A stretch of 51,816 nt of DNA from Pseudomonadota bacterium. Its GTDB lineage: Bacteria > Pseudomonadota > Gammaproteobacteria > Burkholderiales > JAJZQI01. Shown piece after piece: positions 23,192 through 45,614 of the stretch. Position 1 is the stretch's first letter, and each line of letters opens with the position of its first letter. A program made the position numbers and the translations under genes. The notes below the pieces were generated by a model. That model made no database searches and was not told where the DNA came from. It worked only from the letters and a program-made list of their open reading frames with translations. The stretch covers positions 1 through 51,816 of the forward strand of contig JAJZQI010000016.1 in the NCBI GenBank assembly GCA_021851875.1. Reading direction: 5' to 3'.

Positions 23192-24112
23192 TCACGGAGC
23201 AGGGATTTGCGGCAAATGGATAATGTTTTGCGCCTCATTCAGCACAAAATCGTGAAACGCCTGCGCAATAGGGGACAAGCGCTTGCCGCTGCGGGTAACC
23301 AGATACCACTCCTTCATGATGGGGAAACCCTCGACGCTCAGAATGGCAATGCGCTTGAGCTCCAATTCGAATTCCAGCGTATGCAGCGAGACGATACCCA
23401 GACCGAGACCCGCCATCACGGCGTGCTTGATCGCCTCATTGCGGCTCATTTCCATCGAGGTATTGAGGTGCACATCCCGACTCTGGAAAAAACGCTCAAC
23501 CGCGTTACGCGTGCCCGAACCGCGCTCGCGCAGGATAAAGTGCTCATCCATCAAGCGCGTCAGCGGGATGCGCTTCTCCTTGACTAAAGGATGATCCGGC
23601 CTGGCAATGACGACCAGCGGATTCTGCATGAAAGCCCGATAGGAGAGCGGAATCCCTTCCGGCGGCGTACCCATGATCGCCATGTCGGGAATATTGTCCT
23701 GCAAGGCACTCACCACATTCTGCCGGTTGGTCACCTCCAGATGCACCTTGACGCCCGCGTGCTGCTTCATGAACTCGGCCAACAGATAAGGCGCAAAGTA
23801 CTTGCAGGTGGCCGTTGCCGTAATCGCCAGCGCCCCGCGCTTCACACCCTTCATGTCATCCATCAGCGACTCGATATCGCGGAACTGCTCGGCGATATTG
23901 CGACTGAAGTCATACATCTCCCGCCCGGCCTCGGTCAGAAAGATCTTTTTGCCCATCTGCTCAAACAGCGGCAAACCCACCTCATCTTCCAACTGCTTGA
24001 TCTGAGTTGAAACAGCCGGCTGAGTCAAATGCAGCTCTTCCGACGCGCGCGTAAAGCTGGAGTGACGCGCAACCGCCTCCAACAACTTCAATTGCCTAAA
24101 AGTCACGTTCAT
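23192..24112 (-). CDS. cbbR: LysR-type regulator CbbR, cso-linked copy
   Basis: 306 aa. The N-terminal winged helix-turn-helix (FRQLKLLEAVARHSSFTRAS, then LTQPAVSTQIKQLEDEVG) is followed by the effector domain typical of CbbR (PEGIPLSYRAFMQNPLVVIA, RERGSGTRNAVERFF, NEAIKHAVMAGLGLGIVSLH). CbbR proteins activate Calvin cycle operons in response to metabolites such as RuBP or NADPH. It is divergent from the cso operon, with a CbbR-type box between. It is one of three cbbR genes in the window, each paired with its own target operon. Confidence 0.93.
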   Translation of the reverse strand: MNVTFRQLKLLEAVARHSSFTRASEELHLTQPAVSTQIKQLEDEVGLPLFEQMGKKIFLTEAGREMYDFSRNIAEQFRDIESLMDDMKGVKRGALAITATATCKYFAPYLLAEFMKQHAGVKVHLEVTNRQNVVSALQDNIPDMAIMGTPPEGIPLSYRAFMQNPLVVIARPDHPLVKEKRIPLTRLMDEHFILRERGSGTRNAVERFFQSRDVHLNTSMEMSRNEAIKHAVMAGLGLGIVSLHTLEFELELKRIAILSVEGFPIMKEWYLVTRSGKRLSPIAQAFHDFVLNEAQNIIHLPQIPAP

Positions 24113-24169
24113 GGATTACCCCCTAGCAAGCGCCCAAAGTAGGCGCACCAACAGAATCATTCATCATAG

Positions 24170-24225
24170 ATTATGATAACAATAAATATTATTCATTTTC
24201 AATTATGATCTCGCGCCCGTAATAT
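24170..24225 (+). promoter_or_regulatory. CbbR box and cso operon promoter
   Basis: The AT-rich element at 24171-24195 (TTATGATAACAATAAAT, then ATTATT) matches the element before cbbL at 22 of 25 positions. ATTATGAT occurs twice (24170-24177 and 24202-24209), typical of LysR-type sites. A -10-like TAATAT starts at 24220, exactly 49 bp after the start of the box, the same spacing as before cbbL. A weak -35 (TTTCAA) is 16-17 bp before it. Transcription from here would leave a leader of roughly 480 nt that runs through both palindromic elements to csoS2. Confidence 0.7.
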
Positions 24226-24268
24226 CCGTCCCAAGGGCAAAGTTGAAAAACCCTGCCTGACACTCTTA

Positions 24269-24408
24269 AGGAACTTCTGCATAGCCCCATTGCGGGCTCC
24301 GGACAGGTTGAATGGCTGAGTTGACGTGATGTACGGCCATTAGCGTCAACCAGGCTGATCAGCCAACCCGGGCACGCAACGCCGTAGTGGGGCTATTCAG
24401 GGGTTCCT
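24269..24408. mobile_element. MITE-like palindromic element 1
   Basis: A 140-bp unit with imperfect 21-bp terminal inverted repeats: AGGAACTTCTGCATAGCCCC at 24269 against the complement of the segment ending at 24408 (17 of 21 match). The inside also folds (GTTGACG with CGTCAAC, GGCTGA with TCAGCC). There is no coding sequence. The ends resemble those of IS5-type insertion sequences, a resemblance from memory only. No clear target duplication is seen. Confidence 0.65.
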
Positions 24409-24424
24409 AGGAAATCTGTAGATA

Positions 24425-24688
24425 AGGAAGTCCTGAACAAGTTGTCGCCGCCACTGCGAGGCTTGAAGCAGCCAGATGCAAGGCACGCTTCTTGCCAATG
24501 GCCGTAGCCCTTGGCAAGAAGCGTAACGCCGCAGATGGCTGCTTCAAGCCTCGCCCTCCGGGGCGAACAGGACAGCTCGCACTCTGCGTTGCATTTTCTC
24601 GACAGGCCACAGCATGCCTTCGAAAACACGCCTTGATTGCAAGCTGCCCTGTACGCCAGTGGTAGCGAAAACTTGTTCAGGACTTCCT
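24425..24688. mobile_element. MITE-like palindromic element 2, ending at the csoS2 ribosome site
   Basis: A 264-bp unit with perfect 19-bp terminal inverted repeats (AGGAAGTCCTGAACAAGTT at 24425-24443, complement at 24670-24688). A second perfect 19-bp inverted pair lies inside (24456-24474 with 24536-24554), and a third perfect 13-bp pair inside that (24485-24497 with 24512-24524). There is no coding sequence. Its right end is 24 bp from the csoS2 ATG. It looks like a non-autonomous transposable element. With element 1 it occupies most of the cbbR-csoS2 gap. Confidence 0.75.
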
Positions 24689-24712
24689 CAGCGAAGCAAA
24701 AGGAATCCATCC

Positions 24713-26536
24713 ATGAGCCAAGCGACTGAACAAGCTGCGACTCCGCGGTTGAGCGGCCGAGAGGCTGCTATCGCGAGGAGGCAAGCTCTGGCTACGCACG
24801 GAAAGGCCGCCCTCAAAGGCACCTCTCCGGCACAGCCAGCGGCACCCGCCCCTCAAGCGCAAACGCCCGCACCGAGTCAGGCAGATGTTTCAAGCACTGT
24901 TGTAAGCACGCCTGCTGAAAGCGCTGCTGCAGTTCAGGGTCACACCTGCTCCTGCCAGCACAACAGCACCCGCACCGAGGCATCCACTCCGATTCCTCCG
25001 GCACCGGTACCGGCATCACGTCAGCGCCGTATCGAGCAATCGCTGAAAGGTCGCGGCAACGCACCTGCAGCTCGCCCGACCGGCCGTGTACGCCCGGCCC
25101 CGCCGAAGGTTGAAGTGGGCACCACGCTGTCCGGTTCCGAAGTAACCGGCACCCAGGTAGAACGCACCACCCGCGTAACCGGCAACGAACCCGGCACCTG
25201 CCGCACTGTAACCGGCACCGAATACATCGGCACCGAGCAGTACAGCAAGTTCTGCGGTACATCACCGACGCCGAATGCCGCCAAGGTCGGCGTGTCCACC
25301 ACCAGCCACGGTCGCTCGGTGACCGGCACTGAAGTGGGCCGTATCGCCAAGGTAACCGGCGACGAAAGCGGTACCTGCAAACGCGTAACCGGTACCGAGT
25401 ACCTGTCTGCAGAAGAGTCTTCCGCTTTCTGCGGTACGCGTCTGGAGCCGTCCGCCGAAAAGGTCACTGTTGGCCGTACCGCCGGCAGCAACCTGTTTAC
25501 CGGTGGCGATGCCGACCGCAGCAGCCGTGTAACCGGCGGCGATGCAGGCGCAGGCAGCCGTGTAACCGGGGGCAACTACGCCAATCCCGGCATCCGTCGC
25601 GAGCAGGGGGACAGCCTAAAAAAGCCCCAAGCCAGTCACCCGAGCGTTGGCAGCGCGGTGAGAGGCACCCTACCGGTGCTTCCGCCGAGCCGTACCGCCG
25701 CTGAAGCTTCTGCTTCTTCACGAGTGACTGGTTCTCGCTACTTAACTGACGATCCGTTCATTTCGACCCAGCGGGCTCAGCCGTTTATGCCGCCCGCCAT
25801 GGCCGCCCGGATGTTACGGGAAAGTCAGGTAACCGGAATGGTGATGGCTATGCCGAGCAAATTGACAGGTGATGAATATCACGCCAGCAAGCCGGTAACA
25901 GGGACTTCGTCCATCGCGGTTGAACATCTGGTGTCGCGCCCTGCCGGCGCAAGCACCGGCCGCACCCTGGGCGAAGCCATCTATGTGCACCCCCGGGCCA
26001 CAAGCCCGGATGCTGCGGCAGACCTCGGCCACAACCGGCTGATGGATGAACCGCAGGCGCAATTGCCGAGTGGATCGGGTGCGTTTTCCATGACTTCGCC
26101 AACCATGGCCGCAGGACAACGCAACCAGGCCCGCATTACCGGCAGTGCTTACGGTGGAGGCAGCGGCCGCATCAGCGGTTCGATGGCCCGGGCCGTAGGA
26201 CTGGTATCGGGTACACCGGAATTTCGTTATCGCGACGACAGCCAGCCTGTTGCACGCATCGAAGCCCCGGTGGAACAACCTTCGACTGAACGCATTACCG
26301 GTGAAGGCCGCGAGCGCACGATTACAGGCGACGCCTGGGATCGCGGCGACCGCGTAACCGGCACCGAAGGTCAGTCTGCAACACGTCGTAATCCGACCTT
26401 GCGCGGCATGCCGCCTGTGGTACGACAAACAAGGCAAACGGAAAAGCCGGAAGCAGCGGAAATTCGCATCACCGGTGGTAGCGGTCCGGCAACCAAGGGG
26501 GCCACAGTGACCCTCTCTGGTGGAGCACGCGGTTAA
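24713..26536 (+). CDS. csoS2: Carboxysome scaffold protein CsoS2
   Basis: Disordered scaffold that binds Rubisco through N-terminal repeats and the shell through middle and C-terminal repeats. 607 aa, clearly shorter than the roughly 870 aa of Halothiobacillus. I see only two N-repeats (residues about 12-34, GREAAIARRQALATHGK, and a weaker one at 101-123), two full M-repeats (130-185 and 189-245, each with VTGTE and paired Cys: GTCRTVTGTEY/KFCGT, GTCKRVTGTEY/AFCGT) and a degenerate third without Cys (248-289). The conserved C-terminal region with many V/I-T/S-G motifs follows. The start at MSQATEQ has an AAGGAA ribosome site. An in-frame slippery heptamer lies at codons 302-304. Confidence 0.95.
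   Translation: MSQATEQAATPRLSGREAAIARRQALATHGKAALKGTSPAQPAAPAPQAQTPAPSQADVSSTVVSTPAESAAAVQGHTCSCQHNSTRTEASTPIPPAPVPASRQRRIEQSLKGRGNAPAARPTGRVRPAPPKVEVGTTLSGSEVTGTQVERTTRVTGNEPGTCRTVTGTEYIGTEQYSKFCGTSPTPNAAKVGVSTTSHGRSVTGTEVGRIAKVTGDESGTCKRVTGTEYLSAEESSAFCGTRLEPSAEKVTVGRTAGSNLFTGGDADRSSRVTGGDAGAGSRVTGGNYANPGIRREQGDSLKKPQASHPSVGSAVRGTLPVLPPSRTAAEASASSRVTGSRYLTDDPFISTQRAQPFMPPAMAARMLRESQVTGMVMAMPSKLTGDEYHASKPVTGTSSIAVEHLVSRPAGASTGRTLGEAIYVHPRATSPDAAADLGHNRLMDEPQAQLPSGSGAFSMTSPTMAAGQRNQARITGSAYGGGSGRISGSMARAVGLVSGTPEFRYRDDSQPVARIEAPVEQPSTERITGEGRERTITGDAWDRGDRVTGTEGQSATRRNPTLRGMPPVVRQTRQTEKPEAAEIRITGGSGPATKGATVTLSGGARG
25618..25661 (+). promoter_or_regulatory. Candidate -1 programmed frameshift site in csoS2
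   Basis: The heptamer A AAA AAG (25618-25624) is in the exact frame needed for tandem slippage (zero-frame codons CTA AAA AAG). A stem-loop follows 11 nt later: TCACC (25636-25640) pairs with GGTGA (25657-25661), and GCG (25644-25646) with CGC (25654-25656), around a 7-nt loop. After a -1 shift the frame closes at TGA 25702-25704, giving a product of about 330 aa that keeps the N- and M-repeats but loses the C-terminal region. This matches the short CsoS2A and long CsoS2B forms known from Halothiobacillus. Confidence 0.75.
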
Positions 26537-26569: not shown

Positions 26570-28180
26570 ATGAACACTCGTAACCGCCCTGAACATATGA
26601 AACAGCCTAGCCAGACTGCACCCGTTGCAATGGCTATGAAGAGCACACCGGTCACGCACGCCATGGCAACAAACATTGTTGCCTCCTGGCCGCAGCGCCC
26701 AAGTTTCTGCCCGCCCGGCAGCCACTTGGACTCGCGTGGCGAGTGTGTGCCCGATGCTCAATCGACAGACGGTCACCCGCTGGTACAGGCAGCCCAAAAC
26801 GCCCGCCTGGCCGAGTACGAGCGCACTGTTCGTGCGCGTTTCGACGGTATCGTGCCGGCTTTGAAGCGTATTTCAGCCTTACAGCACGAGGAAGATTTCG
26901 TGCAACGTGGTCAGGAGATTGCGCGGGAGACACTGGGTTTTGTGTTGCCCGCGCAAGTTCTTCAAGACTCCTGGGTTTCTACCCTGGACATGAAACAACT
27001 TTACGGATTCAGCGTACTGCATACGTTTCGGGATCTCGCTGCCCAGCTGCCTTTGCCGCTCGACAGCCGTGCCGAAGAAGCAGAAAACATGACGCGCTTT
27101 TTAATTGAGTGCGGCTTCCACGAAGTGGATGTCAGCCCCTGTGCCGACGGCCGCCTGAAAGGCCTGCTGCAGTACATCCTGCGCCTGCCGCAGCGTGCCG
27201 TACTGCGGGTGCAGTCCCATGCGGGCGCCATGTTCGACGTGGAAGGCAATGTTAAGAAATGGGCCGAAACCGAATTGCGCCGCTTCCGCGAGGGTCTGCC
27301 CACGCTACCGGATGCAGGAACCCGCTACCTGAAGATTGCGGTGTACCACTACAGCAGCTCGGACCCGACGCACGAGGGCTGTGCGGCACACGGCAGTAAC
27401 GAACTGGGCGCCGCCGAAGCGGCATTGAACAAACTGAAGGCTTTGCGTACCGCTATTGAAAACGGCTTCTGCTGCGGCGCTTCGCTGGCGACTCTGCTGA
27501 TCGGCGTGGATACCGACACCGACAGCATCAAGATTCACATCCCCGACAGTAAGGGTGAAATGAGTCTGTATCGCCTGGTAGACAACGCCGAGCTGTTTGA
27601 GGCCACGAAAAACATGAATGCGGCACAAGCGCGCGAATACATTCTCGCCGCCATCGACAAGGCTGCCCAGACTGTGGGCTGGGGCCAGGGCGAGGGCGCG
27701 CCGGAAGCAGGCATGCGCCGCCTGATCGCCCGCCTGTTCGAGAACAACTGCTCGCAGATCGCTTATGTAAAGAGCGAACACGGCGGGCGCTACCAGGACA
27801 TCGGCCACCAGGAACGTTTTATTTGTGTGGGCGAAGGATTTGATGAATTGCAGCTGCGCAACCTGACTTATCTGGCGCAACTGTACACGGTGGAAGAAGG
27901 CGCAAAGGACCTGGATGTCGGCATCAAGATTTTTACCGGGCTGAATATCCGTCGCGGTTTGCCGGCCCCCATCGCCATCCACAACCGTTATGACGCAGGC
28001 GTGCCGGGCGCGCGTGAGCGAGCGATTGAGCGTTGCAAACGCATTCACGACGCTATCCACAACCGCTACCGGAGCCTGGTTGAGCAAGGACTGATCGTGT
28101 GCGGCCTGACAATTCAGGCCAAGACGCCGGGCAGCCCGCTGGAAGTAGTCGAATTGGTTGATGAACCGGTTGGACATTGA
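26570..28180 (+). CDS. csoSCA: Carboxysomal carbonic anhydrase CsoSCA (CsoS3)
   Basis: Epsilon-class (beta-like) carbonic anhydrase inside the alpha-carboxysome; it turns bicarbonate into CO2 next to Rubisco. 536 aa. Zinc ligands and catalytic dyad are intact: C191, D193 and R195 in CADGR, then H260 and C271 in VYHYSSSDPTHEGC; the spacing equals that of the Halothiobacillus enzyme (C173, D175, R177, H242, C253). The first five residues MNTRN also match that protein, supporting this weakly led start. The N-terminal 80 residues are variable and probably disordered. It follows csoS2 by 33 bp. Confidence 0.96.
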   Translation: MNTRNRPEHMKQPSQTAPVAMAMKSTPVTHAMATNIVASWPQRPSFCPPGSHLDSRGECVPDAQSTDGHPLVQAAQNARLAEYERTVRARFDGIVPALKRISALQHEEDFVQRGQEIARETLGFVLPAQVLQDSWVSTLDMKQLYGFSVLHTFRDLAAQLPLPLDSRAEEAENMTRFLIECGFHEVDVSPCADGRLKGLLQYILRLPQRAVLRVQSHAGAMFDVEGNVKKWAETELRRFREGLPTLPDAGTRYLKIAVYHYSSSDPTHEGCAAHGSNELGAAEAALNKLKALRTAIENGFCCGASLATLLIGVDTDTDSIKIHIPDSKGEMSLYRLVDNAELFEATKNMNAAQAREYILAAIDKAAQTVGWGQGEGAPEAGMRRLIARLFENNCSQIAYVKSEHGGRYQDIGHQERFICVGEGFDELQLRNLTYLAQLYTVEEGAKDLDVGIKIFTGLNIRRGLPAPIAIHNRYDAGVPGARERAIERCKRIHDAIHNRYRSLVEQGLIVCGLTIQAKTPGSPLEVVELVDEPVGH

Positions 28181-28906: not shown

Positions 28907-29197
28907 ATGGCAAATGGTATGACTGGTATTGCACTGGGCATGATTGAAACCCGCGGTCTGGTTCCGGCGATTGAAGCCGCCGACGCCATGACCAAGGCGG
29001 CTGAAGTCCGTCTGATCGGCCGCCAGTTCGTCGGCGGCGGTTACGTGACCGTGCTGGTGCGCGGCGAAACCGGTGCGGTAAACGCCGCTGTACGTGCCGG
29101 TGCTGATGCCTGCGAACGCGTCGGTGACGGCCTGGTCGCTGCGCACATCATCGCCCGCGTGCACAGCGAAGTTGAAGGCATCCTGCCGACCGCCTAA
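28907..29197 (+). CDS. csoS1: Carboxysome shell hexamer protein CsoS1 (copy 1)
   Basis: 96-aa single-domain BMC hexamer protein, the main facet tile. The core (GIALGMIETRGLVPAIEAAD, RLIGRQFVGGGYVTVLVRGE) is identical with the other three copies; only the C-terminal end differs (GILPTA). An AAAGGAG ribosome site precedes the ATG. Its nucleotide sequence differs from copies 2-4 at a number of silent sites, so it is the most diverged copy. A 206-bp hairpin-rich spacer separates it from copy 2. Confidence 0.97.
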   Translation: MANGMTGIALGMIETRGLVPAIEAADAMTKAAEVRLIGRQFVGGGYVTVLVRGETGAVNAAVRAGADACERVGDGLVAAHIIARVHSEVEGILPTA

Positions 29198-29203
29198 GTA
29201 AAT

Positions 29204-29347
29204 GCTGATTTATTCCAGTTCGTAATAAATCAGCCGGACGGATGCGCGGCACATGTCCGCACATCCTTACGCCTTCAATGACTAACGTCATTGAGCGGCT
29301 GGGCGATCAACCCGTCCAGCAGGAAGCGCCAATAAATAAGCGCTTCC
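29204..29347. repeat. Hairpin cluster between csoS1 copies 1 and 2
   Basis: Four stems. GCTGATTTATT with AATAAATCAGC (29204-29234) is a perfect 11-bp stem. GGATG-GCGG pairs with CCGC-CATCC (about 29240-29265). TCAATGAC and GTCATTGA (29275-29294) are perfect around a TAAC loop. GGAAGCGC and GCGCTTCC (29322-29347) are perfect. The segment 29270-29305 matches the complement of 28224-28259 at 30 of 36 positions. Confidence 0.65.
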
Positions 29348-29348
29348 A

Positions 29349-29403
29349 GAAGGCAAGTAATTCGTTTCATCACTGAAGCATCACACATTTTAGGAGAAAC
29401 AAA
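29349..29403 (+). pseudogene. Remnant of a csoS1 3' end and spacer
   Basis: The bases GAAGGCAAGTAATTCGTT at 29349 read Glu-Gly-Lys-stop and equal the end of csoS1 copy 3 plus its downstream spacer (30038 onward). The match continues through the ribosome site into csoS1 copy 2. No csoS1 body precedes it here, so it marks the edge of a duplicated segment. Confidence 0.75.
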
Positions 29404-29712
29404 ATGGCAAATGGTATGACTGGTATTGCACTGGGCATGATTGAAACCCGCGGTCTGGTGCCGGCAATTGAAGCCGCTGACGCAATGACCAAGGCCGCTG
29501 AAGTCCGTCTGATCGGCCGTCAATTCGTCGGCGGTGGTTACGTGACCGTGCTGGTACGCGGCGAAACCGGTGCGGTAAACGCAGCTGTACGTGCCGGCGC
29601 TGATGCGTGCGAACGCGTAGGTGACGGCCTGGTCGCTGCTCACATCATCGCCCGTGTTCACAGCGAAGTTGAAGGCATCCTGCCGACCACCAACGATGCA
29701 CCGATTCTGTAA
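29404..29712 (+). CDS. csoS1: Carboxysome shell hexamer protein CsoS1 (copy 2)
   Basis: 102-aa BMC hexamer protein, identical in the core to copy 1. The longer C-terminus (GILPTTNDAPIL) is the main difference and would extend from the edge of the hexamer. Ribosome site TTAGGAGAAAC. Leader and body are almost the same as copy 4 at the DNA level, so it arose from a recent tandem duplication or is kept alike by gene conversion. Confidence 0.97.
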   Translation: MANGMTGIALGMIETRGLVPAIEAADAMTKAAEVRLIGRQFVGGGYVTVLVRGETGAVNAAVRAGADACERVGDGLVAAHIIARVHSEVEGILPTTNDAPIL

Positions 29713-29749
29713 TTTGATTGCGTAAATTTTTAGATTCAGGAGAAACAAA

Positions 29750-30049
29750 ATGGCTACTGGAATGAATGGTATTGCACTGGGCATGATTGAAACCCGCGGT
29801 CTGGTGCCGGCGATTGAAGCCGCTGACGCAATGACCAAGGCCGCTGAAGTCCGTCTGATCGGCCGTCAATTCGTCGGTGGCGGTTACGTGACCGTGCTGG
29901 TGCGCGGCGAAACCGGTGCGGTAAACGCCGCTGTACGTGCTGGCGCTGATGCGTGCGAACGCGTGGGTGACGGCCTGGTCGCTGCGCACATCATCGCCCG
30001 CGTTCACAGCGAAGTTGAAGGCATTCTGCCCTCCCCCGAAGGCAAGTAA
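29750..30049 (+). CDS. csoS1: Carboxysome shell hexamer protein CsoS1 (copy 3)
   Basis: 99-aa BMC hexamer protein. It starts MATGMNGIALG rather than MANGMTGIALG and ends GILPSPEGK. Its leader differs from copies 2 and 4 apart from the shared AGGAGAAAC ribosome site. Forty-three bases separate it from copy 4. It probably co-assembles with the other copies in the shell facets. Confidence 0.97.
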   Translation: MATGMNGIALGMIETRGLVPAIEAADAMTKAAEVRLIGRQFVGGGYVTVLVRGETGAVNAAVRAGADACERVGDGLVAAHIIARVHSEVEGILPSPEGK

Positions 30050-30092
30050 TTCGTTGTATCACTGAAGCATCACACATTTTAGGAGAAACAAA

Positions 30093-30389
30093 ATGGCAAA
30101 TGGTATGACTGGTATTGCACTGGGCATGATTGAAACCCGCGGTCTGGTGCCGGCAATTGAAGCCGCTGACGCAATGACCAAGGCCGCTGAAGTCCGTCTG
30201 ATCGGCCGTCAATTCGTCGGCGGTGGTTACGTGACCGTGCTGGTACGCGGCGAAACCGGTGCGGTAAACGCAGCTGTACGTGCTGGCGCTGATGCCTGCG
30301 AACGCGTAGGTGACGGCCTGGTGGCTGCGCACATCATCGCCCGCGTTCACAACGAAGTTGAAGGCATCCTGCCGACCGCTAACGCTTAG
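30093..30389 (+). CDS. csoS1: Carboxysome shell hexamer protein CsoS1 (copy 4)
   Basis: 98-aa BMC hexamer protein, near identical to copy 2 in leader and body. It ends HNEVEGILPTANA, with Asn where the other copies have Ser in HSEVEG. Ribosome site TTAGGAGAAAC. It is the last of four csoS1 genes, followed by a hairpin and the ferritin-like gene. Confidence 0.97.
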   Translation: MANGMTGIALGMIETRGLVPAIEAADAMTKAAEVRLIGRQFVGGGYVTVLVRGETGAVNAAVRAGADACERVGDGLVAAHIIARVHNEVEGILPTANA

Positions 30390-35484: not shown

Positions 35485-36402
35485 TTATCTGCCCCTGGCC
35501 GAGCCCATCAGCGAAGCGGCCTCCTCCAGCATGAAGCGCTTGAAGGCCAATGCCACCGAGGTGAGCCGTTTGCCGCGGCGGTGCACGATGTACCAGTAGC
35601 GCTTGATGGGCAGGCCCTCGACATTGAGTACTGCCAGGCGGTTGGCTTCCAATTCCAGCTCCACGGTATACAGTGACACGACGCTCAGGCCCAGGCCTGC
35701 CTGTACCCCCTGTTTGATGGCCTCGCTACTGTTCATCTGCATGCCCTGCTGGATGTGCACATGGTGCTTGCTGAAATAGCGCTCCATGGCGATGCGGGTA
35801 CCGGAGCCGGGTTCGCGTACCAGAAAGGTTTCCTGCTCCAGGCGCAACAGCGGGATATTGCGTTCGGCGACAAGCGGGTGATTGACCGGCGCGATCACCA
35901 CCAGCGGGTTCTCCACGAAGGACTCGGCCACCAGATCGAGTCCTTCAGGCGGCTGGCCCATGATCGCCAGTTCGATCTCGTTGTTTTCCAGTTCCTCCAG
36001 CAAAGCCTGGCGGTTGGTCACATCGAGGCTCACAGTAACCGTTGGAAAGCGCTGGCTGAATGCCGCCAGCAACTGCGGCGCCACGTAGTTGGCGGTACTG
36101 GCCACGGCAATTTTCAGCTTGCCGCGCTGCAGGCCCTTCAGCTCCAGCATCACCGACGCCGCTTCGGTCAGCAGCTCTGAAATCTCGCGGCTGTAGTGGT
36201 ACAGCTCCTGGCCGGCTTCGGTGAGATAGATTTTTTTGCCCAGCTGCTCAAACAGCGGGATGCCGACGTTTTCCTCCAGTTGCCGCATCTGCATGGAAAC
36301 GGCCGGCTGCGACAGGTGCAGCTCTTCCGCCGCGCGGGTGAAGCTGAGGTTACGCGCAACAGAAGAAAAAACGCTTAACTGGCGAAAAGTAACGTGCAGC
36401 AT
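35485..36402 (-). CDS. cbbR: LysR-type regulator CbbR, cbbLS-linked copy
   Basis: 305 aa. Helix-turn-helix segment FRQLSVFSSVARNLSFTRAA with LSQPAVSMQMRQLEENVG; effector-domain segments PPEGLDLVAESFVENPLVVI, REPGSGTRIAMERYF and SEAIKQGVQAGLGLSVVSLY. The start MLHVTFRQL has a GAGGAA ribosome site; an upstream in-frame ATG would add 7 residues. It is divergent from cbbL. Close to the other two CbbR proteins of the window, so cross-talk between the three is likely. Confidence 0.94.
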   Translation of the reverse strand: MLHVTFRQLSVFSSVARNLSFTRAAEELHLSQPAVSMQMRQLEENVGIPLFEQLGKKIYLTEAGQELYHYSREISELLTEAASVMLELKGLQRGKLKIAVASTANYVAPQLLAAFSQRFPTVTVSLDVTNRQALLEELENNEIELAIMGQPPEGLDLVAESFVENPLVVIAPVNHPLVAERNIPLLRLEQETFLVREPGSGTRIAMERYFSKHHVHIQQGMQMNSSEAIKQGVQAGLGLSVVSLYTVELELEANRLAVLNVEGLPIKRYWYIVHRRGKRLTSVALAFKRFMLEEAASLMGSARGR

Positions 36403-36478
36403 GCAGTTTCCTCGATTTTTCAAAGGAGTAGACTATAACTATAGCCCGCCCGTCTCTACGGGGGCAGAGCCAAAGATC

Positions 36479-36609: not shown

Positions 36610-38031
36610 ATGGCCGTAAAAACATACAACGCCGGTGTGAAGGAATACCGCCAGACTTACTGGATGCCTGAATACACCCCGCTGGACACCGATATTCTGG
36701 CTTGCTTCAAGATCACCCCGCAGGCGGGCGTTGATCGTGAAGAAGCTGCCGCCGCTGTAGCCGCTGAATCTTCTACCGGTACCTGGACCACCGTTTGGAC
36801 CGATCTGCTGACCGACCTGGACTACTACAAAGGCCGCGCCTATGCTATCGAAGACGTACCGGGCGACGACACCTGCTTCTACGCTTTCATCGCTTACCCG
36901 ATCGACCTGTTCGAAGAAGGTTCCGTTGTAAACGTCTTTACCTCCCTGGTCGGCAACGTATTCGGCTTCAAGGCCGTACGTGCCCTGCGTCTGGAAGACG
37001 TGCGCTTCCCGATCGCCTACGTTAAGACCTGTGGCGGCCCGCCGCACGGTATCCAGGTCGAGCGCGACATGATGAACAAGTACGGCCGTCCGATGCTGGG
37101 TTGTACCATCAAGCCCAAGCTCGGTCTGTCCGCCAAGAACTACGGCCGTGCCGTATACGAATGTCTGCGTGGCGGTCTGGACTTCACCAAGGACGACGAG
37201 AACGTCAACAGCCAGCCGTTCATGCGTTGGCGTCAGCGTTTCGACTTCGTAATGGAAGCGATCGAAAAGTCTGAACGTGAAACCGGCGAACGCAAAGGTC
37301 ACTACCTGAACGTGACCGCTCCGACCCCGGAAGAAATGTACAAGCGTGCTGAATACGCCAAGGAAATCGGCGCGCCGATCATCATGCACGACTACATCAC
37401 CGGTGGCTTTACCGCCAACACCGGTCTGGCTAACTGGTGCCGCGACAACGGCATGCTGCTGCATATCCACCGCGCCATGCACGCTGTACTGGACCGTAAC
37501 CCGCACCACGGCATCCACTTCCGCGTGCTGACCAAGATTCTGCGTCTGTCCGGTGGTGACCACCTGCACTCCGGTACCGTAGTAGGTAAGCTGGAAGGCG
37601 ACCGTGAAGCCACCCTGGGCTGGATCGACATGATGCGCGACAGCTTCGTTAAAGAAGATCGCAGCCGCGGCATCTTCTTTGACCAGGACTGGGGCTCCAT
37701 GCCGGGCGTTCTGCCGGTTGCTTCCGGCGGTATTCACGTATGGCACATGCCGGCTCTCGTGACCATCTTCGGTGACGACTCCGTACTGCAGTTCGGTGGC
37801 GGTACCCTGGGTCACCCGTGGGGTAACGCTGCCGGCGCCGCTGCTAACCGCGTAGCGCTGGAAGCTTGTGTGGAAGCACGTAACCGCGGTGTTGCCATCG
37901 AGAAAGAAGGCAAGGAAGTTCTGACCAAGGCTGCCGCAAACAGCCCGGAACTGAAGATCGCCATGGAAACCTGGAAAGAGATCAAGTTCGAGTTCGACAC
38001 CGTCGACAAACTGGACGTGGCTCACAAGTAA
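36610..38031 (+). CDS. cbbL: Ribulose bisphosphate carboxylase large subunit, form IA
   Basis: Fixes CO2 onto RuBP; 473 aa. The start [18 protein letters not shown] is the usual form IA N-terminus with a GGAGG ribosome site. Active-site segments are intact: [15 protein letters not shown], the carbamylated Lys in [22 protein letters not shown], and loop 6 [12 protein letters not shown]. It is followed by cbbS, cbbQ and cbbO. It is the only form I large subunit in the window and is not placed in front of csoS2, where carboxysomal cbbL normally lies. Confidence 0.98.
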
Positions 38032-38122: not shown

Positions 38123-38479
38123 ATGTCTGAAGTTATGGATTACAAAAGCCGTCTGAGCGATCCCGCCAGCCGCAAATTCGAAACTTTCTCTTACCTGCCG
38201 GCCATGTCTGCTGAAGACATCCGCAAACAGGTTGAGTACATCGTTAGCAAGGGCTGGAACCCGGCTATCGAACATACCGAACCGGAACACCTGATGGATT
38301 CCTACTGGTACATGTGGAAACTGCCGATGTTCGGTGAAACCGACGTCAACAAGATCCTGAGCGAAGCTGAAGCGTGTCACAAATCCAACCCGAACAACCA
38401 CGTTCGCCTGGTTGGCTACGACAACTTTGCTCAAAGCCAGGGCGCTGCGATGGTGATTTACCGCGGTAAAACCGTGTAA
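38123..38479 (+). CDS. cbbS: Ribulose bisphosphate carboxylase small subunit (IAq type)
   Basis: 118 aa. It begins [26 protein letters not shown]; the SDPASRK stretch before FETFSYLP is the short N-terminal insertion that marks form IAq small subunits and is absent in carboxysomal IAc ones (recalled from the family literature). The rest ([26 protein letters not shown]) is standard. AAAGGAA ribosome site. This suggests a cytosolic Rubisco by ancestry, in tension with the intact carboxysome operon next door. Confidence 0.97.
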
Positions 38480-38654: not shown

Positions 38655-39458
38655 ATGAGCGACATCATGGAGCAGTATCGCGTTAAAAAAGAGCCTTACT
38701 ACCGCGCTGTAGCGGATGAAGTAGCACTGTATGAAGCCGCCTACTCCGTGCGCATGCCGATGATGCTGAAAGGCCCGACCGGTTGCGGTAAAACCCGTTT
38801 TGTCGAATACATGGCCTGGAAACTGGGCAAGCCCCTCATCACCGTAGCCTGTAACGAAGATATGACCGCCTCCGATCTGGTCGGCCGTTTCCTGCTGGAT
38901 GCCAACGGCACCCGCTGGCAGGATGGCCCGCTGGCCATCGCCGCCCGCTACGGCGCCATCTGCTATCTGGACGAAGTGGTTGAGGCCCGTCAGGACACCA
39001 CCGTGGTGATCCACCCGCTGACCGACGCCCGTCGCGCGCTGCCGCTGGAAAAAAAAGGCGAACTGATCGAAGCCCATCCGGACTTCCAGCTGGTGATCTC
39101 CTACAACCCGGGCTACCAGAGCCTGATGAAGGATCTGAAGCAGTCCACCAAGCAGCGTTTCGGCGGTCTGGACTTCAACTATCCGGAACACGGAATCGAA
39201 CAGGAAATCGTGGCGCACGAAGGCCATGTCAATGCCGAAGTGGCCGACAAACTGGTTTCCATCGCCGAACGCGCGCGTAACCTGAAAGGCCACGGCCTGG
39301 ACGAAGGCATCTCCACCCGTATGCTGATTTATGCGGCATCGCTGATCTCCAAGGGCGTTGAACCCAGCGCTGCCTGCCGTGTGGCCCTGGTTCGTCCGAT
39401 TACCGACGATCCGGACATGCGCGACGCGCTGGATGCAGCTGTAAGCACCTATTTCTAG
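38655..39458 (+). CDS. cbbQ: Rubisco activase AAA+ subunit CbbQ (form I linked)
   Basis: 267-aa MoxR-type AAA+ ATPase. Walker A GPTGCGKTRF near residues 40-49, Walker B AICYLDEV near 100-107, sensor region [23 protein letters not shown]. With CbbO it forms the CbbQO motor that removes inhibitory sugar phosphates from Rubisco. It follows cbbLS and precedes cbbO. It is a close paralogue of the second CbbQ at 44783. Confidence 0.97.
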   Translation: MSDIMEQYRVKKEPYYRAVADEVALYEAAYSVRMPMMLKGPTGCGKTRFVEYMAWKLGKPLITVACNEDMTASDLVGRFLLDANGTRWQDGPLAIAARYGAICYLDEVVEARQDTTVVIHPLTDARRALPLEKKGELIEAHPDFQLVISYNPGYQSLMKDLKQSTKQRFGGLDFNYPEHGIEQEIVAHEGHVNAEVADKLVSIAERARNLKGHGLDEGISTRMLIYAASLISKGVEPSAACRVALVRPITDDPDMRDALDAAVSTYF

Positions 39459-39536
39459 AGTAAGCGGTGAACCGCAAGGGGTGAACGGTTTACTGTTCAC
39501 CGCTCACCGCTCACTGCTAACTGTTTACTGCTCTCT
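39459..39536. repeat. Degenerate 7-bp repeat hairpin, cbbQ-cbbO spacer
   Basis: Heptamers AGTAAGC, GGTGAAC, CGCAAGG, GGTGAAC run forward. After one base come seven heptamers in the opposite sense: GTTTACT, GTTCACC, GCTCACC, GCTCACT, GCTAACT, GTTTACT, GCTCTCT (complements of the RGTNARC type). The array begins at the base after the cbbQ stop and ends 24 bp before the cbbO ATG, so it folds into a hairpin in the cbbQO mRNA. Confidence 0.7.
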
Positions 39537-39560
39537 ATCCACCCGAACTGGGGAGGAACC

Positions 39561-41933
39561 ATGTCAATCCATCTTGAAGATTACGAGGAACACCTCGGTC
39601 AGCTGACCGACCACTCGCGCGAGATTCTCGCCGCGACGTGGCAGGATGCCGCACGCGTGTTCAGCCCGCGCGGCCTGCAAAACTATCTGGATGGCGCCGT
39701 CTCCCTCAAGAACCTGGGACGCGGTCACGAACTGGTTGCCACCTATATCGAGAACGCCCCGCCCATCGCCCGCCTGGTGGGTGAAGACGTGGTGCCCGAT
39801 CTGGTGGTCGCCGCCATGACCATGGCCTCCAAAACCAGCGGCACGGTTATCGACCTGATGCTGTCGACCGCGCCGTTTGCCGCCGAGCGTCTGGGCGACG
39901 CCGAGTTGTTCAAGAAGTACCTGCAGCTGATCAACACACTGTTGGCCAGCGCGCCGCGCGGCGTCAAGCCCATGCTGGACAGCCTGGAAAAACTGTTTTC
40001 CCAGCTCACCCTGGGCGGTCTGCGCCGCTGGGCGACCTGGGGCGCCCAGGCACACCGTACCAATTACGAAGAGCAGGTGCGCTACTTCAGCCTGCTCACG
40101 CCGGAATCGCTGGCGATCATGCAGCAGGAACGCAAGGGCACGCTGTTCGTCGACGTTCATCGTCGTATCAACATGTACCTGCGTGCGCTGTGGGCGCGCG
40201 ACTTCTTCATGCGTCCCACTTCCGGCGACTTTGAGAAGCGTGAAGGCTACAAGCCGTACATCGAGAACTATCTGCTGCACATTCCCGATGCTTACGACGA
40301 TTTCATCGTAAAAGATGCCAACGACAACGTCACCCTGCACGTCGACGGCCTGGAAATGTACCGTGCCGCCACCGCACACTGTGCCGCGCACATGGTCTAC
40401 ACCACCACGCCGATTTCGGCGGAAGGCATCAACACCTTCCAGATGGCCGTGATCAGCGTCATTGAAGATGCCCGTGTAGAACGCATTGCCATCAACAAAT
40501 TCCCCGGTCTGGCGCAACTGTGGTCCAAGCTGCATCTGGCCACGGCGGACCAGAGCAAGAGCCTCGGCGATTACCTCAACCGTATCGCCCGCGCCCTGCT
40601 CGACGCGGACTATGTGGACGATCACCCGATCATCGTCAAGGCACGCGAACTGTTTGCCGCCGAACAGCACCGGCTGGAAGACAACCAGCTGTCGTGGGAT
40701 ATCGGCGTACAGCTGGCACACGAGCTGTACCAGCTGAAACTCGGCTTCTCGCCGAGCAAGGACGTCCTGCGCGCGCCCTACCTGGACGACAACCGCTATT
40801 TCTGGGAATTCGAAGAATTCGACATGGACAAGGCGGCGGCAGCCGGTTACGACACCGTGCAGCAGGTGCGCAAGTACGTCAGCGTGATGGAAATGGTCAA
40901 CGAGATCGACACCGAACTCGCCGGCGACGACGCACAGGAAATCTGGGTACTGCCGACCGAACTCTACCCGTATGAAAATATCGGCGACGAGTCCGGCGGC
41001 CAGTCCTGGAACGAAATGGAAGGCAAGGAACCCCTGTCCGCGCCTTACCACTACCCGGAATGGGATTACCAGATCCAGCTGGAGCGTCCGACCTGGACCA
41101 CGGTGATGGAAAAGCGCGCGAAAAACGGCGAACTGGAAATCATCGAGAACATCGCCGCACAGTACAAGCGCGAAATCCAGCGCATGAAATTCCTGCTCGA
41201 TGCCATGCAACCGCAAGGCGTGCAGCGTATCCGCAAGCTGGAAGACGGCGACGAGGTGGATATCAACGCGGCCATCCGTTCCATGATCGAAATGCGCATG
41301 GGCATGCAGCCCGATCCGCGCATCATGATGCGCTCGGTGCGCAAGACGCGCGATATTTCCGTGATGGTTCTGGTCGACCTGTCCGAATCCACCAACGACA
41401 AGGTGGCCGGCCAGGACCACACCGTGCTCGACCTGACCCGCCAGGCCTGCGTGCTGCTGGCCGACGCCATTAGTAAAATCGGCGACCCGTTCGCCATCCA
41501 CGGCTTCTGCTCCGACGGCCGTCACGACGTGGAATACTACCGCTTCAAGGACTTCGACCAGCCCTACGACGACACGCCCAAGGCGCGCCTCGCCGGCATG
41601 ACCGGCCAGTTGTCCACCCGTATGGGCGCGGCCATCCGCCATGCCACGCACTACCTGAAGCAGCAGCGTTCGTCGAAGAAGCTGATGCTCGTCATCACCG
41701 ACGGCGAACCGGCCGACATCGACGTGCGCGATCCGCAGTATCTGCGCAACGACACCAAGAAAGCCGTAGAAGAAGCCGGCCGCAACGGCGTCATCACCTA
41801 CTGCATGAGCCTGGACCCGCGTGCCGACCAGTACGTGTCACGCATTTTCGGCGCCCGCAACTACATGGTGGTCGACCAGGTAGAGCGTTTGCCGGAAAAA
41901 CTGCCCCTGTTGTACGCTGGTTTAACTCGTTAA
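39561..41933 (+). CDS. cbbO: Rubisco activase adaptor CbbO (form I linked)
   Basis: 790-aa protein with a C-terminal von Willebrand A domain. The MIDAS motif DLSEST lies in VMVLVDLSESTND near residue 607, with later metal-loop residues in GAAIRHATHYL and ITDGEPAD. The VWA domain binds Rubisco, and the long N-terminal part docks the CbbQ hexamer. Ribosome site GGGAGG. The last 11 sense codons (KLPLLYAGLTR) and stop are repeated twice downstream; see the repeat entry. Confidence 0.96.
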   Translation: MSIHLEDYEEHLGQLTDHSREILAATWQDAARVFSPRGLQNYLDGAVSLKNLGRGHELVATYIENAPPIARLVGEDVVPDLVVAAMTMASKTSGTVIDLMLSTAPFAAERLGDAELFKKYLQLINTLLASAPRGVKPMLDSLEKLFSQLTLGGLRRWATWGAQAHRTNYEEQVRYFSLLTPESLAIMQQERKGTLFVDVHRRINMYLRALWARDFFMRPTSGDFEKREGYKPYIENYLLHIPDAYDDFIVKDANDNVTLHVDGLEMYRAATAHCAAHMVYTTTPISAEGINTFQMAVISVIEDARVERIAINKFPGLAQLWSKLHLATADQSKSLGDYLNRIARALLDADYVDDHPIIVKARELFAAEQHRLEDNQLSWDIGVQLAHELYQLKLGFSPSKDVLRAPYLDDNRYFWEFEEFDMDKAAAAGYDTVQQVRKYVSVMEMVNEIDTELAGDDAQEIWVLPTELYPYENIGDESGGQSWNEMEGKEPLSAPYHYPEWDYQIQLERPTWTTVMEKRAKNGELEIIENIAAQYKREIQRMKFLLDAMQPQGVQRIRKLEDGDEVDINAAIRSMIEMRMGMQPDPRIMMRSVRKTRDISVMVLVDLSESTNDKVAGQDHTVLDLTRQACVLLADAISKIGDPFAIHGFCSDGRHDVEYYRFKDFDQPYDDTPKARLAGMTGQLSTRMGAAIRHATHYLKQQRSSKKLMLVITDGEPADIDVRDPQYLRNDTKKAVEEAGRNGVITYCMSLDPRADQYVSRIFGARNYMVVDQVERLPEKLPLLYAGLTR

Positions 41934-42208: not shown

Positions 42209-43136
42209 ACCGCCCAAATTTCCACGCCCGCCTGGGTTCCTCCGAACGCGCCACGCGTTTCGCCTCGCTCTGTACAAATTCCGCAAAGGCCTGTGCCGCC
42301 GGGCTCAGCCGCTTACCCTGCCGCTGTACCAGGTACCATTGGCGCATGAGGGGAAAACCCTGCACATCCAGAATGCACAGGTTACGTGTCGCCAGCTCGC
42401 CGTGCTGTGACACCACCCCCACGCCCAGGCCGGCTTCCACCGCCTGCTTGATCGCCTCGTTCTTGTTCATTTCCATCGCCGCCTTAAGCTTCAGGCCATT
42501 GGCTTCGAAGAATTTCTCCACCACATTGCGCGTGCCCGAGCCCGGCTCACGGCCGAGGAACGGCTCTTCGGCCAAGCGCTCAAGTGGGATGTCATGCGCC
42601 TTGGCAAGCGGATGGTTGGGCGAGGCAATCACTACCAGCGGGTTCTCCAGAAAAGGCTGCGCTTCCAGATCATGCCCTTCGGGCGGCTGTCCCATCAGCA
42701 CCAGGTCGACGCTGTTTTCGGCCAGCTGCTGCAGCAGTGTCTCGCGGTTTACCGCATTCAGGTTTACGCGTACATCCGGATGAGTCTGGCGGAACGCGGC
42801 AATCAACCGCGCAGCCAGATAACTGGCGGAACTGGCCACCGACACGGTCAGGCTGCCGCCCTTCATACCCTGTAAATCCGCCAGGGCATTTTCCAGGTTG
42901 GCCAATTCGCGGTGCACGGCCCGGCTGGTTTCCAGCACTTCGCGGCCGGCTTCGGTGAGGTAAATACGCTTGCCGATATGCTCGAACAGGGGCAGGCCAA
43001 GCGAATCTTCCAGTTGCTTGACCTGCATCGATACCGCCGGCTGCGTCAGATGCAGCTCAGCGCTGGCGCGCGAGAAGCTGCCGCATTGTGCAACGGCCTC
43101 AAGAATGTCGAGTTGGCGGAGTGTCAGTCTTAACAT
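42207..43136 (-). CDS. cbbR: LysR-type regulator CbbR, cbbM-linked copy
   Basis: 309 aa. Helix-turn-helix LRQLDILEAVAQCGSFSRAS with LTQPAVSMQVKQLEDSLG; effector domain PPEGHDLEAQPFLENPLVVI, REPGSGTRNVVEKFF and NEAIKQAVEAGLGVGVVSQH. Divergent from cbbM, the classic cbbR-cbbM arrangement. The C-terminus is longer and basic (SEEPRRAWKFGR) compared with the other two CbbR proteins. Confidence 0.94.
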   Translation of the reverse strand: MLRLTLRQLDILEAVAQCGSFSRASAELHLTQPAVSMQVKQLEDSLGLPLFEHIGKRIYLTEAGREVLETSRAVHRELANLENALADLQGMKGGSLTVSVASSASYLAARLIAAFRQTHPDVRVNLNAVNRETLLQQLAENSVDLVLMGQPPEGHDLEAQPFLENPLVVIASPNHPLAKAHDIPLERLAEEPFLGREPGSGTRNVVEKFFEANGLKLKAAMEMNKNEAIKQAVEAGLGVGVVSQHGELATRNLCILDVQGFPLMRQWYLVQRQGKRLSPAAQAFAEFVQSEAKRVARSEEPRRAWKFGR

Positions 43137-43168
43137 CGGACAGATATATAAGAATAAGTTTGATATCG

Positions 43169-43213
43169 TATCATAATTACTGAATATTTCTTATAAACCC
43201 TATCGCGTATAGT
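43169..43213 (+). promoter_or_regulatory. Probable CbbR box and cbbM promoter
   Basis: TATCATAATTACTGAATATT (43169-43188) resembles the cso and cbbL boxes (shared TATCATAA and AATATT) but is less alike than they are to each other. A -10-like TATAGT starts at 43208. The distance from TATCATAA to it is 39 bp, against 48 bp at cbbL, about one helical turn shorter. Confidence 0.55.
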
Positions 43214-43273
43214 GGCGTCTGATTTATTACGGCTAAATCAACCAAGCTATTCATTTTCAATCTGGAGATTCAA

Positions 43274-44653
43274 TTGGATCAGTCCGCACGCTATGCAAAC
43301 CTCGACCTGAAGGAAGAGGACCTCGTTAAGAATGGCAAGCACATTCTGGTTGCCTACAAAATGAAACCGAAAGCCGGTCACGGCTACCTGGAAGCAGCTG
43401 CTCACTTCGCCGCTGAATCCTCCACCGGTACCAACGTTGAAGTTTCCACCACCGACGACTTCACCAAGGGTGTTGACGCGCTGGTGTACTACATCGACGA
43501 AGCCACCGAAGACATGCGCATCGCTTACCCGATCGAACTGTTCGACCGCAACGTAACCGACGGCCGCTTCATGCTGGTTTCCTTCCTGACTCTGGCTATC
43601 GGTAACAACCAGGGCATGGGCGACATCGAACACGCCAAGATGATCGACTTCTACGTACCGGAACGCGCTATTCAGATGTTCGACGGCCCGGCTACCGACA
43701 TCTCCAACCTGTGGCGTATCCTGGGTCGTCCGGTTAAGGACGGCGGTTACATCGCCGGTACCATTATCAAGCCGAAACTGGGCCTGCGTCCGGAACCGTT
43801 CGCCAAGGCTGCTTACCAGTTCTGGCTGGGTGGCGACTTCATCAAGAACGACGAACCGCAAGGCAACCAGGTTTTCTGCCCGCTGAAGAAAGTACTGCCG
43901 CTGGTTTACGACGCAATGAAGCGTGCGCAAGACGAAACCGGTCAAGCCAAGCTGTTCTCCATGAACATCACCGCTGACGACCACTACGAAATGCTGGCCC
44001 GTGCTGACTACGCGCTGGAAGTATTCGGTCCGGACGCAGACAAGCTGGCCTTCCTGGTTGACGGCTACGTGGGCGGCCCCGGCATGGTGACCACCGCGCG
44101 TCGTAACTACCCCGGCCAATACCTGCACTACCATCGTGCCGGTCACGGTGCGGTGACTTCTCCGTCCGCCAAGCGTGGTTACACCGCGTTTGTACTGGCC
44201 AAGATGTCCCGTCTGCAAGGCGCTTCCGGTATCCACGTGGGTACCATGGGCTACGGCAAGATGGAAGGCGATGCCGACGACAAGATCATCGCTTACATGA
44301 TCGAGCGCGACGAGTGCCAGGGTCCGGTGTACTTCCAGAAATGGTACGGCATGAAGCCCACCACCCCGATCATCTCCGGTGGCATGAACGCTCTGCGTCT
44401 GCCGGGCTTCTTCCAGAACCTGGGCCACGGCAACGTGATCAACACCTCCGGCGGCGGTTCTTACGGCCACATCGACAGCCCGGCTGCTGGCGCGATCTCC
44501 CTGCGTCAGTCTTACGAGTGCTGGAAAGCCGGTGCCGACCCGATCGAATTCGCGAAAGAGCACAAAGAATTTGCTCGCGCATTCGAATCCTTCCCGGGCG
44601 ACGCCGACAAGCTGTACCCGGGCTGGCGCGAAAAACTGGGCGTACACAAGTAA
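43274..44653 (+). CDS. cbbM: Ribulose bisphosphate carboxylase, form II (TTG start)
   Basis: Form II Rubisco, 459 aa, for high CO2 and low O2 conditions. N-terminus [18 protein letters not shown] matches form II proteins, which fixes the start at TTG (43274) with a GGAG ribosome site 6 bp before it; no ATG fits. Active-site segments: [13 protein letters not shown], the carbamylated Lys in [25 protein letters not shown], and [11 protein letters not shown] (loop 6). Divergent from cbbR, followed by an internal terminator and a second cbbQO pair. Confidence 0.98.
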
Positions 44654-44685
44654 TCCCAGTTTATCTGCAGCATCCGCAGCAGAAG

Positions 44686-44712
44686 AACGCCCCCGTCCGG
44701 GGGCGTTTTTTT
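44686..44712 (+). terminator. Attenuating terminator between cbbM and cbbQ
   Basis: AACGCCCCC (44686-44694) and GGGGGCGTT (44699-44707) form a 9-bp stem around GTCC, followed by a T run. As cbbQ and cbbO follow on the same strand, partial read-through would give much more CbbM than activase. Confidence 0.88.
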
Positions 44713-44782
44713 CCGGACGCCTGGCAAAGTCGCCCCTGAGACGCTTTTGCCAGACGCCCGATCCAGCTATTTGGAGAACACC

Positions 44783-45589
44783 ATGACCACCAACAAAGAA
44801 CAGTACCAGATTCAGCAGGAACCGTTTTACCAGCCCAAGGGCAACGAAGTCGCCCTGTATGAAGCCGCTTACCGTTCACGCCTGCCGGTCATGGTCAAAG
44901 GCCCCACCGGTTGCGGCAAATCGCGCTTTATCGAACACATGGCGTGGAAACTGGGCAAGCCCCTTATCACCGTGGCCTGTAACGAAGACATGACCGCGTC
45001 CGACCTGGTTGGGCGTTATCTGCTGGAATCCAACGGCACCCGCTGGCTGGACGGCCCGCTCACCACCGCCGCCCGCATCGGCGCCATCTGCTATCTGGAT
45101 GAAATCGTCGAAGCCCGCCAGGACACCACCGTGGTCATCCACCCGCTGACCGACCACCGCCGTACCCTGCCGCTGGATAAAAAAGGCGAGCTGATCCAGG
45201 CGCACCCGGACTTTCAACTGGTGATCTCCTACAATCCCGGCTACCAGAGCCTGATGAAGGACCTCAAGCAGTCCACCAAACAGCGTTTCACCGCCTTTGA
45301 ATTCGACTATCCGGCAGCCGAGCTGGAAACCACCATCGTGGCCAAGGAAACCGGCATGGACGAAGCCGTGTCCGCCAAGCTGGTGAAAATCGGCCAGACC
45401 GCCCGCAACCTCAAGGGCCACGGGCTGGACGAAGGCATTTCCACTCGCCTGCTGGTGTACGCAGCCACGCTGATCAAGGACGGCGTAGACCCGAAAGACG
45501 CCTGCCGCATGGCGCTGGTGCGCCCGATCACCGACGATGCCGACATCCGCGACACGCTGGATCACGCCATCGACGCGTTGTTTGCCTAA
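44783..45589 (+). CDS. cbbQ: Rubisco activase AAA+ subunit CbbQ (form II linked)
   Basis: 268 aa, close paralogue of the CbbQ at 38655. Walker [11 protein letters not shown], Walker B AICYLDEI, and [23 protein letters not shown] are conserved. The start MTTNKEQYQ has a TTGGAG ribosome site. In this family form II linked Q2O2 complexes are specific for CbbM. It follows cbbM after the terminator and precedes cbbO by 25 bp. Confidence 0.96.
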
Positions 45590-45614
45590 GCGTCACACGC
45601 AGGGGAACGAAAGC

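Follow-up and report, generated by a model that had tools for sequence, protein, structure and literature searches.

The window, a stretch of 51,816 nucleotides, carries an alpha-carboxysome (cso) operon in the order csoS2, csoSCA, csoS4A, csoS4B, four csoS1 genes and a bacterioferritin-like gene. Gene calls, profile searches and annotation place csoS2 (24713-26536, plus strand) at the head of this operon, as the original prediction had it, followed by csoSCA (csoS3; 26570..28180, plus strand; TIGR02701, 670 bits), which encodes the carboxysome shell carbonic anhydrase. The four csoS1 genes stand in tandem at 28907-30389 and encode near-identical proteins; in many relatives their number is two or three. 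Divergent from csoS2 lies cbbR1 (23192..24112, minus strand), a LysR-type regulator gene whose best NCBIfam match is CbbR NF045990, under the cut-off of that model. The cbbLS pair, which most alpha-carboxysome operons carry at this place, is indeed missing: none was found in the gap between cbbR1 and csoS2, and the one form I Rubisco of the genome (36610-38028 in the genome search) is encoded about 12 kb downstream. There, a second regulator gene, cbbR2 (35485..36423, minus strand; gene calls and profile search), diverges from a separate operon of cbbL (36610..38031, plus strand), the sole form I large-subunit gene in a genome-wide search, cbbS (38123..38479, plus strand), and the Rubisco activase genes cbbQ and cbbO (38655..41933, plus strand), which stand beside cbbLS as in form IAq clusters. 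The starts of cbbL and csoS2 are 11.9 kb apart, and the bacterioferritin-like gene ends 5.7 kb before cbbL begins. We refer to such loci, with csoS1-4 genes lacking cbbLS directly upstream of csoS2 and a separate cbbLS about 2.6-21 kb off, as split. A form II cluster (cbbR-like, cbbM, cbbQ and cbbO; 42210-47876), with the form II Rubisco at about 43.3-44.6 kb, directly follows the form I cluster, and carboxysome genes and both Rubisco sets all lie within 25 kb.

The gap between cbbR1 and csoS2 spans 600 bp (24113-24712) and holds a promoter-proximal block followed by two palindromes, E1 and E2. The block (24168..24225, plus strand) is A+T-rich and CbbR-box-like, ends in a -10-like TAATAT (24220-24225) and is conserved in seven split loci, which backs the original proposal of a CbbR box and promoter at this place; the transcription start of csoS2 is predicted by computation at about 24232. 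A ribosome-binding site, AAAGGAA (24699..24705, plus strand), precedes csoS2, is conserved in relatives and is untouched by the insertions. The palindromes, originally sized at 140 and 264 bp, measure 138 bp (E1, 24270..24407) and 262 bp (E2, 24426..24687) by repeat, fold and genome searches; neither is assigned a strand, and both have GGAA...TTCC ends. E1 has 27-nt arms (24269-24295/24382-24408) and a predicted fold of -84.8 kcal/mol (z -8.7). E2 has 32-nt arms (24425-24456/24657-24688) enclosing two further pairs (24456-24479/24531-24554 and 24485-24502/24507-24524) and a predicted fold of -167.2 kcal/mol (z -16.8). The three repeats of E2 are nested as described earlier; they are not perfect, being 91, 92 and 94% complementary. 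None of 200 shuffled sequences folded as stably as either element, and a chance origin of the folds is therefore excluded. Between the end of E2 and the csoS2 ATG lie 25 bp. Ahead of 24713 the csoS2 frame continues without a stop through the right arm of E2, and translation from its in-frame ATG at 24614 would lengthen the protein by 33 residues; a start at 24713, which is conserved, is more likely.

To place this arrangement among its relatives, 38 loci of the order and 80 named loci were annotated, and a CsoSCA tree of 107 rows was built. In the annotated relatives, cbbR1 is a conserved neighbour of csoS2 in split loci. The CsoSCA clade of the window (SH-aLRT 99) comprises 27 rows, namely 23 split, 4 unscorable and no canonical loci, and takes in Thiobacillus loci as well as genomes of other families (f1, f25, f35 and f50). 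A second, separate split clade contains a complete genome of family f44, T. denitrificans and other MAGs, Parasulfuritortus and Tepidiphilus (including L030, L094, L097, L098 and L102), and a gammaproteobacterial pair (L090 and L092) is placed elsewhere in the tree. Starred branches of the tree force at least two changes of the split state, and the best tree has three; by this phylogeny, the split arrangement arose at least twice. Counts of CsoS2 N-terminal motifs did not separate split from canonical loci. In L090 (5695-6015), and in the same region of L092, a cbbS-like gene of 107 aa stands alone and divergent some 1 kb ahead of csoS2; no cbbL adjoins it, and a cbbL lies about 14 kb further on.

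The origin of the separate Rubisco was examined in a combined CbbL and CbbS tree of 91 rows. The split-locus enzymes fall inside a clade of free-standing cbbR-cbbLSQO (IAq) enzymes (47 rows, SH-aLRT 99), which includes none of the 43 cso-operon enzymes; the Rubisco of split loci is thus not of cso-operon descent. The sole row labelled split that lies outside the IAq clade is L145, whose contig ends at the locus; it is tallied as split in the table of this tree and was counted as unknown in the docking comparisons below. Because the split enzymes group with free-standing IAq enzymes and with no cso enzyme, the carboxysomal pair was lost and replaced. The original prediction had cbbLS "lost or moved"; loss, with replacement, agrees with the tree, and the same tree rules out intact relocation.

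Whether the replacement enzyme is packaged was approached through seven residues in or next to the groove where Rubisco docks with CsoS2 and CsoSCA (CbbL 25, 72, 99, 345 and 346; CbbS 94 and 96), most of which are named in PMC10614612 and PMC10154267. With the positions and allowed letters chosen by the analyst, carboxysome-like residues were found in 10 of 11 split enzymes, in 40 of 43 cso enzymes and in 5 of 36 of the free-standing ones (uncorrected p = 6e-6); when relatedness was counted, four independent pairs remained, with all differences in the same direction and not significant. The Rubisco of the window itself has carboxysome-like residues at this site. These data suggest that the IAq enzyme of split loci may be packaged. 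IAq enzymes are canonically cytoplasmic, and no carboxysomes were seen in T. denitrificans (PMC5248467, PMC9164163), so the enzyme might instead have stayed in the cytoplasm, and this lineage would then have a carboxysome that holds nothing, holds something else or is out of use. We regard this as unlikely, however, given that T. thioparus, which has a split locus and only one cbbLS, makes carboxysomes (PMC5248467), that the split enzymes have carboxysome-like docking residues, and that the cso operon is intact and conserved.

The original prediction read the palindromes as the scar of cbbLS loss, and comparison with relatives refuted this. The only other genome of the window's family that was compared (family n=2), that of a sister species in the same genus (G001), has the same cbbR1-csoS2 order, lacks cbbLS and has E1 and no E2. 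L056 and L057, which follow as the nearest loci in the CsoSCA tree, have the same order and promoter with gaps of 195 and 221 bp, and neither element was found in these gaps. More broadly, cbbLS is absent before csoS2 in all 23 scorable members of the clade, and in nearly all of them the gap is 144-221 bp with neither element. Since G001 has E1 only and L056 and L057 have neither, the order of events is the absence of cbbLS, then E1, then E2; on these sequences, E1 arose later, within the genus, and E2 later still, in the window's species only. An excision or transfer of cbbLS out of the gap, marked by the two palindromes, would fit their position exactly between cbbR1 and csoS2 and the presence of cbbLS 12 kb away. 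It is nevertheless extremely improbable, as cbbLS-less relatives lack both elements, the sister species lacks E2, and the nearby Rubisco stands outside the cso-operon lineage.

E2 has the features of a miniature inverted-repeat transposable element (MITE): it is short, non-coding and bounded by terminal inverted repeats, it has dispersed copies, and in a relative the corresponding site is empty. A genome-wide search of the kind proposed originally revealed E2 as a dispersed family and E1 as a single copy. Besides the window copy, the same genome (G000) has two full E2 copies on contig C42 and two short relics (C9 and C21), and G001 contains a full copy (C32) as well as one with an internal deletion (C34); there were no matches in 397 other genomes of the order, and the family is thus confined to the genus. 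E2 is polymorphic at two sites. At csoS2, the site is empty in G001, where it reads GTTAAGCGAAG with a TTAA target; the flanks of the C32 copy match a region of G000 that is free of E2, with poor alignment at the exact junction. A counterpart region sought in G001 for the copy C42b gave no match. The C9 relic (L012, near 1815-1870; G000:C9:122315-122369), an internal-deletion relic, is a 44-bp near-perfect hairpin of only the two E2 ends, with TTAA on both sides, and a similar one lies at G000:C21:16055-16118. The window copy is flanked by ATAA and TCAG, with no clean target-site duplication, and duplications at other copies are near-matches or degraded.

IS5 insertions target YTAR (PMC10359306). 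Like MITEs with IS5-like ends (PMC10359306), E2 is short and non-coding, with terminal inverted repeats starting GGAA, TTAA or YTAR-like targets, dispersed copies and empty sites, and we infer on this resemblance that it is of IS5 type. Unlike those MITEs, E2 is a nested palindrome over its full length, its arms change together and its target duplications are mostly degraded. A search of its own genome for a parent insertion sequence through DDE_Tnp_1 returned one gene with no matching ends nearby, and this candidate was dropped. Among plasmids, the gap gave no match at 1e-5 and an E2 copy only short, weak matches. Like REPIN/REP elements (PMC3116915), E2 is a mobile, non-coding palindrome; it is larger and low-copy, and no kinship is claimed. 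When the four full copies are compared, both sides have changed with pairing preserved at 32 of 109 base pairs; the corresponding figures are 12.0 for shuffles and 2-4 for slid controls. Double changes, at 38 cells, are much more numerous than the roughly six one-sided steps, and several of the former lie side by side; these four related copies thus hint at arm-to-arm copying in DNA rather than slow selection on RNA.

E1 differs from E2 in that it lacks dispersed copies: each of the two genomes of the genus has a single, orthologous copy, and none was found in 347 other genomes. It is classed as no more than E2-like in its ends; since these letters (GGAACCCCTGAATAG in E1 versus GGAACCTCTGAACCG in E2 copies) and a 13-nt motif (92%) are common to both, E1 looks like an older relative of E2. 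Between the window and G001, the arms of E1 differ at 3 of 80 positions and its centre at 16 of 60 (p = 1e-4; two sequences), and the centre has two compensatory pairs in the same two sequences. At four-fold sites, csoS2, csoSCA and dabB differ by 26-39%. That the arms vary far less than the centre and the four-fold sites suggests, for two sequences, that they are under constraint, and E1 may have gained a function. It is conceivable, at somewhat less than an even chance, that E1 provides csoS2 with a functional, structured leader, acting in mRNA stability, attenuation or as a regulator site, whether E1 was co-opted from a mobile element or was never mobile. Its single orthologous copy, its conserved arms and its compensatory pairs favor this reading; however, only two sequences were compared, the local rate is uncertain, given a difference of only 13.8% at the four-fold sites of cbbL, the next relatives manage without E1, no Rfam family matched, and the ends resemble those of E2.

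As the original prediction also held, csoS2 is probably transcribed from the CbbR-type promoter block, with a long folded leader. The ribosome site (AAAAGGAAT) and the CbbR-box block are conserved in L056 and L057, and the predicted leader lengthens from about 63 nt in L056 to 216 nt in G001 and 481 nt in the window. Predicted accessibility of the ribosome site is almost unchanged among these three leaders, and no masking of this site by E1 or E2 is accordingly predicted. An Rfam search of 23900-24900 returned sub-threshold matches only, with no family over its gathering score, which also ruled out a known structured RNA family as the leader. Transcripts can be terminated or processed at long hairpins, and E2 ends so close to csoS2 that the elements might serve as a terminator or provide their own promoter, with csoS2 transcribed from inside or after them. 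This is quite improbable, because a simple consensus scan of the gap detected neither a terminator-like site nor a plus-strand sigma-70-like site, and relatives without the elements keep the same upstream block. E1 and E2 are an example of a leader absorbing long palindromes with its promoter and ribosome site untouched.

Taken together, the locus points to an ancient replacement of carboxysome cargo. In the clade ancestor, loss of the carboxysomal cbbLS would have placed cbbR, its box and the promoter immediately ahead of csoS2. The free-standing IAq Rubisco (cbbR2-cbbLSQO) would have become the sole form I enzyme and is probably what the carboxysome now contains. Two palindromes with IS5-like ends would have entered the csoS2 leader much later, E1 first, in the genus, and then E2, in the window's species only, presumably moved by an IS5-type transposase acting in trans; the predicted leader would have grown stepwise around an intact promoter and ribosome site. 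We consider this account as a whole, of a split locus with ancient cbbLS loss, IAq replacement and late insertion of E1 and E2, to be highly probable. A more specific version, in which a formerly cytoplasmic IAq Rubisco was taken into the carboxysome with its groove kept or re-made for CsoS2 and CsoSCA, and E1, a transposon-like hairpin, was recruited into the csoS2 leader in the window's genus, is put forward tentatively.

Split alpha-carboxysome loci have been published for the Thiobacillaceae (PMC9164163), including T. thioparus DSM 505 (PMC5248467). These loci and the window alike have csoS2-csoSCA-csoS4AB-csoS1 without upstream cbbLS and a nearby cbbLSQO with its own cbbR; the window differs in belonging to another family of the order, in tree support that now sets its Rubisco apart from cso-operon enzymes, and in the two palindromes of its csoS2 leader. 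A 2022 review of atypical carboxysome loci noted that tree support was too low to assign split-locus Rubisco to carboxysome or cytoplasm, and that noncarboxysomal Rubisco was not packaged in tests. The present trees sharpen this point by separating carboxysomal from cytoplasmic sources of Rubisco, and together with the docking residues, which suggest packaging, they make a natural exchange of carboxysome cargo directly testable, which bears on carboxysome engineering. In addition, a CsoSCA N-terminal motif, WPxRxSFCPPxM/S, is common to the split clade of the window (26570-26770; L015, L037, L038, L041, L042, L045 and L046) and was not seen in the canonical or second-clade CsoSCA proteins that were read; it could be a candidate Rubisco-binding peptide of this clade.
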